A DNA stretch of 64,000 nt, from assembly GCA_947469285.1 (NCBI GenBank), contig CANIOW010000018.1, forward strand, positions 1 to 64,000, read 5' to 3'. The DNA comes from Gammaproteobacteria bacterium (GTDB lineage: Bacteria; Pseudomonadota; Gammaproteobacteria; Steroidobacterales; Steroidobacteraceae). Below the pieces are notes generated by a model. It did no database searches and had not been told where the DNA came from. It was given only the letters and a program-made list of their open reading frames with translations. Position 1 is the first letter of the stretch; every line of letters starts with the position of its first letter. Shown piece by piece: positions 32,033-36,183 of this stretch. Position numbers and translations under genes: made by a program.

Positions 32033-35000
32033 ATGGCATACAAAACTTGGTCGTTGGCGGCCTTACTGGGCGCAACGTTGGGCTTGGTCGGCTGTGACAA
32101 GCCGCCCTTGGATATCCGCACCATCGACGATGCCGCGCACGCCAAAATCGGCGTCATGACTGGCACGACGGGCGAAACCATCGTCCACCAACGCTTCCCG
32201 CAGGCTGATATTCAAACCTTCCAGGATGTCATGGACGCCGTGGCGTCCTTGAACGCTGGAAAACTCGATGCCGTGGTGACCAGTTTCCCCACCGCCATTC
32301 AGGTCGCCAAGAAAAACCTGCACCTGCAGGTTTTACCGCAGCCACTCAAGTTAGATGACACCTCCGTCGCCGTACGGAAGGGTGAAACCATACTGCTGGC
32401 GCAGATCGATCAAATCATCACCCAATTTCAGCAAGACGGTACGCTGCAGTCGGCGGATCACCGCTGGTTTAAACCAGATCTCGCGCCCTACGAGGAAATT
32501 GAGATCTCCGTGCCTACCACGGGCATCCCCTTACGCATTGGTGTGAGCGCCACCCGCGAACCCTTGAATTTCGTGGATGCCAAGGGCCGCATTACCGGTC
32601 ATGAAGCGGATATTGCCCGTTTGCTGGCCGTCAAACTCGCACGTCCCATCGAATTCCACGACATGCCTTTCATGGCACTCCTGCCAGCGCTGCAGTCGGG
32701 AAAAATCGACGCCATCATCACCGGCATGACCGCTACTGCCGAACGCCGCAAGAAGGTCGACTTTTCGGTCTCTTATTTTCAAAACCCCATGGTCATGCTG
32801 ACGCGCAAGCCAAACGCAGGCAATCCGACAGCCACGGCTACCAAAACCCCTCCTCAGGGAAAAATGACCACCGGCGCCGACCTGAACGGCCGCAAGATTG
32901 CCGTGCTGCTTGGGTCCGCCCATGAAACCTACGCCACCAAGACCTACCCTGACGCCACGATTCTGCAATTCCAAAACATTGCCGACGTCATCTTGGCCGT
33001 CAAAACCGGCAAAGCCGATGCCGGTCTGAACGACGCTGACCCGTTACGTGAACTACTAAAAACCGATCCGACGCTCAGCGCTATCGGCGATGACCTGTTT
33101 GCCTTTCCAGTAGCAGCAGCCTTTAGCAAAAACCAACACGCCCTGCGCGAACAGTTCAACCAGTTCTTGGCCGCCAGCCGGCAGAGTGGTCTCTACGACA
33201 ACATGTTCAAGCGCTGGCTACGCGATGGAAGCCAGAAAAAACATCCGGTGAGCGCGCCCAATACCCAAGGGGTTATCACCATTGGCGTCGCCGTTGTAGG
33301 CCAACCGTTCATCTTCGTACAAGACAATGAACTGGCCGGATTCGACATCGAAATGGCTGAACGTTTCGCCGCCGCCCAAGGAAAGAAGCCCGTATTCCTC
33401 AATATGGAATTCAGCGCCCTGATCGCCGCCGTGGCCAGCGGCAAAGTGGATTTTGTCATCGCCTCCATTTTCGTCACCGACGAACGCAAGAAACAAGTCG
33501 ATTTCGCTGACCCGTATTACCAGATGGGCACTAAAGCGTTTGGGCTGGCCAAGAACGTTGCCGTGGCATCACCGGCTCCAGCCTCTCCCGCAGCGGCTAC
33601 CTCGCCCATAGCGGCTGCCTCGCTTAAGATCCGATCCGGAGCCGATCTCGACGGGCTGCGGCTCGCGGTCCTGCAGGGGTCGGCCCAAGAAGCCTTTGCC
33701 ACCAAGACCTATCCGAAGGCCACCATCTTGAGGTTCACTTCGGGCTCTGACACCACCGTGGCCGTCAAAACCGGCAAGGCGGATGCGGCCCTCGGCGATG
33801 AAACTGGTTTAATCGAGATACTCCGCGATGACCCAAGCTTAGGGATACTGCAGGAACCGCTGTTTGCCTTTCCGGTGGGTGCCGGCTTCAACAAAGCCAG
33901 CCGTCCACTGACCGAACAGTTCAACGCCTTTCTGGCACAACTGCAGACAGACGGAACGCTGGCCGACATTTTCACTCGCTGGACCAAGAACCGTGAGTGG
34001 ACGATGCCGGATATTCCAAACCGGAAGGACCATGAGATCCTGCGTGTCGGTATCGCCGGCGACGGCGGCGTGCCCTTTGAGTTTTTTCAGGACAATGAAC
34101 TCGTCGGACTTGACGTTGAGATTGTCAAACGGTTTGGCGCCTCCCAAGGGCGTGAAGTGCAGTTCCTGAACATGGATTTCGGCGCCCTCATCGCCGCCGT
34201 GTCCAGCAACAAAGTGGACATGATTATCAGTGGCATTTTTGTTACGCCGGAACGGCTCCTGCGCATCGACTTCTCGGACCCCTACGACCATGTAGCGGCG
34301 AAAGCCTACGCTCTGAAAAGCAATCTCGCTGCCTACGACGTCGTGGCCAGCGACGTTGCCGCCAATGCACCGACCCCAGTACAGAGCACCCCAGGCTTCC
34401 TCGACCGACTCGCTGAAAGCTTTCAGAGCAATATCGTCCACGAGAAGCGTTACCTGCTCATCCTGAGCGGACTACAGACCACGGTAGTCATTTCCATTCT
34501 CTCGACTGTATTTGGTACCTTGCTTGGAGCCTTAGTGTGCTTCATGCGCATGTCGCCGAAGACTGCTCTGAACATGCCCGCCGGCATCTACATTGCCATC
34601 ATGCGAGGTACGCCGGTACTAGTACTGCTGATGCTGATCTTCTACGTGGTGTTCGGCTCGGTGAATATTTCTCCGGTGCTCGTGGCCGTGGTGGCGTTCG
34701 GCATGAACTTCGCCGCCTATGTCGCAGAAATCTTCCGCACCGGCATCCAGGGCGTCGACCGCGGCCAGAGCGAAGCCGGCATCGCTATGGGGTTTAGCCG
34801 AGTGAGCACGTTCATGCACATTGTGCTGCCACAGACAGTGCAACGCATCTTGCCCGTCTACAAAGGCGAGTTCCTGTCGTTGGTGAAGATGACCTCCATC
34901 GTCGGCTATATCGCTGTCGAAGACTTGACTAAGGCAAGTGACATCATTCGCAGCCGCACGTTTGACGCCTTTTTCCCGTTGGTCATGGTGGCGGTGCTGT

Positions 35001-35095
35001 ACTTCGTCATCTCCTGGGTGCTGATGCAAGCTTTGGAATATCTGGAGCGCATCACCGATCCAAAATACAAGCGTCGTACCGGAGGTGCGTCATGA
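32033..35095 (+). CDS. Amino-acid-type ABC importer: tandem solute-binding domains fused to permease
   Basis: 1020 residues. N-terminal lipoprotein signal with lipobox LGLVGC (Cys21). Then solute-binding (SBP_bac_3) modules: residues ~25-150 hold only lobe 2 and the closing segment; ~167-400 a full SBP (from [14 protein letters not shown]); ~412-655 a full SBP (from [14 protein letters not shown]); ~668-780 only the opening lobe-1 half ([11 protein letters not shown]). A polar amino-acid permease domain follows (~800-1010), with several membrane helices and the EAA loop [21 protein letters not shown]. The halves at the two ends could in principle complement each other. Start at 32033 gives the lipobox; AAGGAA lies upstream. 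Overlaps the ATPase gene by ATGA. Confidence 0.88.
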
Positions 35096-36183
35096 TTCGC
35101 GTCGAACACCTGTCGAAGAGCTATGGCAGCCTTGTGGTCCTGAAGGACATCACCACTGAAATCCACAAGGGCGAGGTCATCTCCATCATTGGCCCGTCAG
35201 GCACCGGAAAAAGCACCTTCCTGCGCTGCCTGAACCTGCTCGACGAGCCGACGGGGGGCAGCATCCATATTGACGATGTCAATGTGCTCGACCCGAAGAC
35301 AGACGTGCCTCGGGTACGCCAGAAGATGAACATGGTGTTTCAGTCATTCAATCTGTTCGCACATTTGAGTGTGCTCGACAACCTAACACTCGCACCGATG
35401 AAGCTGAAGGGATTGGACCGCACGACTGCAGACACCAAGGCACGCGACCTACTGAAACTAGTCGGCTTGGCCGGCAAGGCCGACGCCTTTCCGGACGAAC
35501 TGTCTGGTGGCCAGAAGCAGCGTGTGGCCATCGCCCGTTGCCTGGCGATGGAACCGGAAATTATCCTGTTCGATGAACCCACTTCGGCACTCGACCCGAC
35601 CATGGTCAGCGAGGTGCTTTCAGTCATTCGCCGCCTCGCGAAAGAGGGCATGACGATGGCCATCGTCACCCACGAGATGGACTTTGCCCGCGATGTCTCC
35701 AACCGTGTGTTCTACATGGATGAAGGGCTGATCTACGAAGAAGGTACGCCGGAACAGATCTTTGGTAATCCAAAAAAGCCCCGTACGCGCGCCTTCATCA
35801 ACCGCATTCGCAGCTTTATTTACCGCGTTGAATCGGCCGATTTTGACTTTTATGCCATGAACGCTGATATCGAATCGTTCTGTGAAAAGCACATCCTGCC
35901 GCGCAAGACTCGAGATAACCTATTGTTGCTGGTCGAGGAGTTGGTGCAATTGCATTTGCCGACATTGGACCAGGGGGCGTTCAATATTGAAATCGACTAC
36001 TCCGAGAAAAACGGTGACACGGAGCTGGTATTTAACACCGCGGCGACGATCGGGAATGTACTGGAAGTCAGCGATCAAGAGGATGACTTCGCCGTCACGA
36101 TCATCCGCAATCTCACCGAGAACATTACCCATACCCAAGCAGATGGGCTAAGCCGTCTGGGAATGACTGTCAAGCGGGGATAA
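35092..36183 (+). CDS. ABC transporter ATP-binding protein with extra C-terminal domain
   Basis: 363 residues versus ~245 for amino-acid importer ATPases. Residues 1-245 are a standard HisP/GlnQ type: Walker [10 protein letters not shown], signature [15 protein letters not shown], Walker [14 protein letters not shown], switch His in VTHEMDFA. Residues ~250-363 form an additional domain with the segment [17 protein letters not shown] and, later, [17 protein letters not shown]. The VEELVQ helix resembles the N-box of GHKL/anti-sigma-factor ATPases, though the Asn and the G boxes are degraded, so it may be a regulatory, non-catalytic relative (inference). Coupled to the fused permease gene. Confidence 0.9.

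Follow-up and report, generated by a model that had tools for sequence, protein, structure and literature searches.

Evidence for three tandem circularly permuted solute-binding domains ahead of the permease of an amino-acid-type ABC importer

The window analysed here, a 64,000-nucleotide stretch of a gammaproteobacterial assembly (contig CANIOW010000018.1), carries an importer gene whose solute-binding protein (SBP) lobes pose a question of partnership: which lobe belongs with which? An ordinary SBP has lobe 1 followed by lobe 2, and ATP-binding cassette (ABC) importers of the GlnPQ type carry tandem family-3 SBPs before a polar amino-acid permease, together with a separate ATPase. The locus consists of two overlapping plus-strand genes, at 32033-35095 (1020 residues) and 35092-36183 (a 363-residue ABC ATPase). 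When the first protein is segmented with hidden Markov models (HMMs), lobe 2 followed by lobe 1 appears three times, and then the permease. We conclude, with a probability of roughly 0.87, that this gene encodes three tandem circularly permuted family-3 SBPs before the permease of a type I ABC importer of the amino-acid type.

The open reading frame (ORF) is intact, with zero internal stops, and its start codon at 32033 is preceded by AAGGA. The product is composed of a lipoprotein-type signal, six segments of the size of family-3 SBP lobes and a permease of the polar amino-acid type. Pfam finds SBP_bac_3 at 316.4 bits over four stretches (cut-off 26.4), plus BPD_transp_1. Lobe coordinates from the HMMs refer to an ORF that is 20 residues longer, so 20 must be subtracted for numbering from the 32033 start; in the longer numbering, lobe 2 and lobe 1 fall at 47-170 and 181-284, at 299-425 and 429-532, and at 554-680 and 684-788, followed by the permease at 816-1035. 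The first-pass annotation had described half, full, full and half SBPs fused to a permease. With an ordinary SBP as the yardstick, that order is indeed found where it had been placed, by Pfam and by HMM segmentation. The fusion is also borne out, since the permease domain scores above cut-off with BPD_transp_1 and with TIGR01726, the His/Glu/Gln/Arg/opine 3-transmembrane family (71.1 bits vs 42.2).

A scan of species genomes yielded 136 relatives, of which 80 loci, with 83 fused ORFs, were kept. Seventy-nine of the 83 begin with lobe 2 followed by lobe 1, three are truncated where their contig ends, and the remaining one, encoded on the L068 minus strand, is an ordinary lobe 1-lobe 2-permease ORF that serves as a control. 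The layout had been thought rare, and it is rare among genomes, but within its own family it is the rule (79 of 82 permuted fused ORFs). With repeats removed, relatives and near relatives amount to 98 proteins, comprising 81 fused proteins and 17 free-standing single units. This set excludes ORFs of the repeating or cutting loci L001, L002, L028, L029, L035, L037, L038, L054 and L067, as well as three ORFs (L034, L093 and L102) that a contig end truncates, leaving part of a lobe 1 in first place; the L103 protein, cut within its first lobe 2, was counted as having two units. The number of lobe 2-lobe 1 units per fused protein is one in 17 cases, two in 41, three in 15 (the window protein included) and four in 8.

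A protein with one unit has no alternative lobe partner within its own chain. The free-standing units likewise keep lobe 2 before lobe 1. Those listed have open frames of 247-326 residues, and most of them begin like a lipoprotein; most also stop at the hinge strand that follows lobe 1. Exceptions are the L110 frame, which extends about 50 residues further, and the very divergent L108 protein. Neither chance nor an assembly error explains the order, because L033, a relative from a Burkholderiales assembly with 78% identity to the window protein, and 13 more three-unit relatives have the same order. As an outcome that would count against its own reading, the first-pass annotation had named homologues with a full SBP at each end and an error in this assembly; instead, lobe 2-lobe 1 recurs in independent assemblies.

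The divergence of the lobes points to the same grouping. Among the 95 units that have a successor, the divergence of lobe 1 tracks that of lobe 2 of its own unit (r 0.91) far more closely than that of the following lobe 2 (r 0.25). If the protein is instead read as a ring, the last lobe 1 tracks the first lobe 2 at r 0.33 in 64 proteins, as opposed to 0.87 for its own lobe 2. In the 41 two-unit proteins, the same-unit correlations are 0.89 and 0.86 and the off-pair correlations are 0.28 and 0.41; when the set is thinned to 29 proteins, the corresponding values are 0.89 and 0.77, and 0.04 and 0.09. None of 500 bootstraps reversed the contrast in either set. Within the window protein, identity between units 2 and 3 is 48% for lobe 1 and 51% for lobe 2, and DNA repeats within the gene agree with this kinship. 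Unit 1 is only 25-31% identical to either, which identifies lobe 2-lobe 1 as the duplicated piece.

Exchanging the halves of a unit provides a direct sequence test of permutation, which covered unit 1 of the window protein and the free-standing L072 protein of Trichlorobacter thiogenes (L072:9896-10678). In native order, unit 1 aligns with its top PDB matches, AncQR and further SBPs, in two crossed stretches at 128.5 bits. With its halves exchanged, the match runs unbroken along residues 11-228, at a higher score of 141.8 bits. The L072 protein behaves similarly with 6svf, its score increasing from 134.3 bits in native order to 147.2 bits after the exchange.

Structure prediction with AlphaFold used the window protein and 14 three-unit relatives as input (15 sequences), and gave a full model with a predicted local distance difference test score (pLDDT) of 74.9 and a predicted template modelling score (pTM) of 0.34. 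In this model each lobe 2 is predicted to pack as a Venus flytrap with the lobe 1 that follows it, whereas a lobe 1 stays apart from the next lobe 2. Among the matches listed, residues 24-264 superpose on a whole SBP at 3.1 Å over 171 residues (one row), residues 287-512 at 4.1 Å over 201, and residues 526-768 at 4.2 Å over 209. By contrast, ranges from a lobe 1 to the next lobe 2 fit SBPs of 23-34% identity at 12.7-14.1 Å only, again among the matches listed. Values of pLDDT below 50 occur at the joins after each lobe 1 (262-273, 513-530, 770-793 and 795-805); the only other such stretches lie in the signal and in parts of the permease, and no join inside a unit is affected. A free-standing unit is modelled at pLDDT 86.7 and pTM 0.77 and superposes best, among the matches listed, on OpuAC (4.1 Å over 201). 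Thus, as far as the predicted models go, the permuted units share the two-lobed SBP fold. ATP phosphoribosyltransferases mostly came first in a Foldseek search with the free-standing model (TM-score about 0.4-0.5); we attribute this to a general two-lobed fold and do not take it as kinship.

The linkers agree with this division of the chain. The 95 joins between units have a median length of 13 residues (range 2-36) and are rich in Pro, Ala, Ser and Gly. Within the 193 units the joins are tighter, with a median of 7 residues and a range of 3-13 between HMM edges, and are also Pro-rich.

Several observations weigh against counting by lobe 2-lobe 1 units. The low pTM of the full model (0.34) means that the placement of units relative to each other is not predicted, and the pairing of lobes rests on a single model that was judged by superpositions rather than by coordinates. 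The superpositions that fit well are of low identity and include SBPs of ordinary order, and part of their quality is due to pseudo-symmetry, as lobe 1 and lobe 2 of a type II SBP are alike. The L072 protein in native order matches 6h30, the ordinary SBP tandem of GlnPQ, across its domain boundary (residues 100-324), which illustrates how a permuted unit could be cut out of an ordinary tandem. Off-pair correlations are also high in the 15 three-unit and 8 four-unit proteins; in the 15, lobe 1 of the first unit correlates with its own lobe 2 at r 0.82 and with that of the third unit at 0.84. Agreement of nearest neighbours is 44 of 95 for same-unit pairing vs 40 of 95 for standard pairing. Finally, co-divergence is a mark of an inherited unit and not of physical contact.

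One competing arrangement is among those that the first-pass annotation had offered, in which two ordinary inner SBPs (167-397 and 405-650) are enclosed by a composite SBP made of the terminal halves. The order of the Pfam stretches fits such a structure, and both inner pairs would then hold a full set of site residues, Thr, Arg and Asp, leaving the N-terminal lobe 2 without Asp. However, the one-unit and free-standing proteins, which have no inner SBP to enclose, are still built as lobe 2-lobe 1, the ring and standard correlations (0.33 and 0.25) fall far short of the same-unit values (0.87-0.91), and AlphaFold does not pack lobe 1 with the next lobe 2, so that we consider this arrangement very improbable, for the composite end domain and the inner SBPs alike. 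A domain swap, wherein the lobes would pair between the two chains of the importer dimer (lobe 2 from one, lobe 1 from the other), is slightly less improbable; the linkers between units in multi-unit chains look flexible. Against it, the join from lobe 2 to lobe 1 is short in all 193 units, and a single chain suffices for a good prediction of the free-standing unit. Three whole permuted units remain the preferred reading because relatives, co-divergence, the permutation test, the predicted structure and the linkers all favour the lobe 2-lobe 1 count. The earlier idea of a repeat array cut at both ends survives in part, as a plausible origin of the permuted register, although half-full-full-half is not the best parse. 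Domain models mask permuted SBPs of this sort, and annotation consequently displays them as broken halves. Coordinates of all features are collected in the table.

Table. Features of the permuted SBP-permease gene and the adjoining ATPase gene, in window coordinates.
Feature	Coordinates	Strand	Basis
Lipoprotein-type signal, lipobox LVGC at residues 18-21	32033..32095, residues 1-21	+	Read from sequence
Permuted SBP unit 1: lobe 2 ~27-156, lobe 1 ~157-264	32111..32824	+	HMM, superposition of 24-264, sequence test
Flexible linker 1, residues 265-273	32825..32851	+	pLDDT <50 at 262-273
Permuted SBP unit 2: lobe 2 ~274-402, lobe 1 ~403-512	32852..33568	+	HMM, superposition of 287-512
Pro/Ala-rich linker 2, residues 513-529	33569..33619	+	pLDDT <50 at 513-530, sequence
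Permuted SBP unit 3: lobe 2 ~530-657, lobe 1 ~658-770	33620..34342	+	HMM, superposition of 526-768, ~50% identity with unit 2
Linker 3 to permease, residues 771-793	34343..34411	+	pLDDT <50 at 770-793
Polar amino-acid type permease, residues 794-1020, and stop	34412..35095	+	BPD_transp_1, TIGR01726, 4yms_D
GlnQ-like ABC ATPase domain	35092..35811	+	ABC_tran above cut-off; best models TcyN and GlnQ
ATPase C-terminal extension, ~120 residues	35812..36183	+	Profile kinship of tail family to RsbW-like HATPase kinases

The permease domain of the predicted model superposes on 4yms_D with a Z score of 18.4. The start of the ATPase gene overlaps the stop of the permease gene by 4 bases, and its product matches ABC_tran above the Pfam cut-off; the best models are TcyN and GlnQ, both below their equivalog cut-offs. 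Judged by these sequence matches, the permease, the family-3 SBPs and the GlnQ/HisP-like ATPase fit the polar amino-acid (PAAT, TC 3.A.1.3) ABC importers.

By comparison with GlnBP, we take the site Arg to hold the carboxylate of the ligand and the Asp to bind its amine. Across the 193 units, the Arg is kept in 192 and the adjoining Thr or Ser in 191, whereas the Asp is present in only 111. It is absent from 46 of 64 first units and from 22 of 64 last units (including those of seven of the eight four-unit proteins), from 10 of the 17 units of one-unit permeases, from 3 of 31 middle units and from 1 of the 17 free-standing units. In the window protein, unit 1 keeps Thr and Arg and has Ser in place of Asp, and units 2 and 3 have Asp. 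Because the presence of Asp varies by unit in this manner, we infer that the units differ in ligand, and amino acids are the presumed ligands.

A working model for the importer can be drawn from these parts. Each domain consists of lobe 2, with the C-terminal helices, followed by lobe 1; the permutation opens the chain within a lobe 2 loop, and it is at this loop that flexible linkers connect neighbouring domains. The chain is probably anchored at its N-terminus by a lipid and at its C-terminus by the permease. Each unit is expected to close on its ligand as other Venus-flytrap SBPs do. One importer would be assembled from a pair of these chains and a pair of the downstream ATPases, and because the permease is presumed to be dimeric and each chain has three units, six binding domains would be available to capture ligands and perhaps dock in turns. 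A crude lipobox pattern occurs within 25 residues before the first lobe 2 in 60 of the 98 proteins, a count that is not used as support.

The family is sparsely and unevenly distributed. The fused protein is carried by 7 of 59 near-relative genomes, the window's own included, and no match at E 1e-80 was found in 299 genomes sampled from the phylum except in the window's own. There was also no plasmid match at E 1e-40 that would indicate spread by plasmids. According to record labels, the lineage reaches from Pseudomonadota to Chlorobiota, Bacillota and relatives of Geobacter. The eleven phylum labels among the loci are labels only, as the titles of metagenome-assembled genomes (MAGs) are unreliable and include suspect Klebsiella and Kuenenia titles (L063, L064, L088 and L097). 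The 192 permuted rows need two label changes, not one, in a count of origins that compares only 10 ordinary SBPs and in which L108 forms a long branch.

Some members depart from the usual composition. The window genome has a separate free-standing permuted SBP (L115:4270-5145), with a sensor-kinase-like gene (L115:1752-4139) just downstream; both are on the minus strand. In two Chlorobiota loci, L082:7112-12463 and L099:8379-13695, a free-standing unit stands side by side with permeases that carry three units and one unit, an arrangement that suggests possible mixed permease dimers. In a Thermotogaceae MAG (L102:2-2533), the frame runs past the permease into an extra lobe 2-lobe 1 unit behind a hydrophobic segment.

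The ATPases of these loci have an addition of their own. An ATPase gene lies immediately downstream of a fused permease in 56 cases, and 53 of these ATPases, the window's included, are of a long kind; of the three that are short, two are truncated where the contig ends and the other looks frame-broken. For study of the tails we used ATPases of 340-410 residues, which are 56 members of a cluster of 70 (ten are shorter and four longer). All 56 have more than 90 residues beyond the ATPase domain, which partly follows from the choice of length. Comparison of the 56 tails (the window's first) with 15 HATPases of the same loci by hhalign gave a probability of 97.3 and an E value of 2.4e-11. The L036 tail matches PF13581 at E 5e-5, below the Pfam cut-off, and the window tail alone has no HATPase match in Pfam. 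RsbW/SpoIIAB-type kinases carry Asn and Gly nucleotide-binding motifs, and inspection by eye of the tails listed did not reveal the Asn and Gly motifs of the neighbouring HATPases. The tails thus seem to be a degenerate RsbW-like domain, apparently lacking nucleotide-binding motifs.

Genes for partner switching recur around the family. Counted anywhere in the fetched stretches, genes for STAS proteins are present in 24 of the 80 loci, those for SpoIIE-type phosphatases in 22, for HATPases in 15 and for NMT1-like binding proteins in 13, and at least one of STAS, SpoIIE and HATPase is found in 32 of the 80. Pfam confirms one example of each, the SpoIIE example having Cache and HAMP domains. A recurrent order (NMT1-like SBP, SpoIIE phosphatase, permuted SBP-permease, tailed ATPase, STAS, HATPase) is seen in L036, L045-L049, L052-L054, L068, L073, L082 and L099, incomplete in some of these loci and with the HATPase on the opposite strand in several. 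No member of the STAS, SpoIIE, HATPase or NMT1-like clusters was found at 22001-46000 of the window, and the six SpoIIE and eight STAS matches in the window genome all lie on other contigs. Since the 24 kb around the window gene has no such genes, the signalling link is a trend of the family and not a trait of the window locus.

These associations prompt a speculative proposal, which we regard as unlikely though worth stating. The array of one to four permuted domains might serve as the input of a partner-switching pathway: an occupied array would drive the ATPase, whose RsbW-like tail would hold or release a STAS protein that is also acted on by a Cache-SpoIIE phosphatase. If true, nutrient capture would be read out as signalling. 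A stronger version, that the array mainly senses, with the importer reporting ligand supply to partner switching through its ATPase tail and transport being secondary, seems to us more doubtful still. It gains from the RsbW-like tails, from the prevalence of long downstream ATPases, including the window's, and from the 32 loci with SpoIIE, STAS or HATPase genes. However, none of these genes is present in the other 48 loci, of which many are short contigs, or in the 24 kb around the window gene, and the permease and ATPase domains look intact.

Natural permuted SBPs are already known. A literature search, with most subscription journals outside it, found no earlier account of family-3 SBPs with permuted lobes, of a permease that bears permuted SBPs in tandem or of an ABC-transporter ATPase with such an RsbW-like tail. 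The glycine-betaine binders, OpuAC (2b4l) among them, include circular permutants (PMC2395249). The permuted units here superpose on OpuAC over their whole length, but identity is only 9-13%, and no glycine-betaine binder appears in the best 60 of 98 matches to window unit 1 or the best 60 of 258 to L072. Because identity is so low and the lobes group by sequence with amino-acid SBPs, this permutation is probably separate from that of OpuAC. In Treponema, the importer lipoprotein Tp0684/MglB-2 (Type Ic, Cluster Bc) is an SBP with a natural circular permutation (PMC4990184). It differs in being a type I sugar binder with another cut site and a single lipidated SBP, and tandem copies or fusion to a permease are not reported in that article.

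The ATPase tail is, by profile, a distant relative of the HATPases in the same loci and hence resembles the RsbW/SpoIIAB anti-sigma kinases, but it is fused to an ABC ATPase and seemingly lacks their nucleotide-binding motifs. Whether partner switching can be coupled to an ABC ATPase thereby becomes a testable question. So does the question of why importers string several receptors on one permease, as nature supplies, within this family, importers with one, two, three or four permuted binding domains in tandem, plus free-standing single units. This rare and patchy family is thus an example of an importer whose sensing arm has been rewired and multiplied. A close counterpart in design is GlnPQ, which likewise bears a tandem of family-3 SBPs on its permease and whose solved tandem, 6h30, matches proteins of the window family. 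The lobes of GlnPQ follow the ordinary order, whereas the units here are permuted, number up to four and are accompanied by an ATPase with an extra domain.

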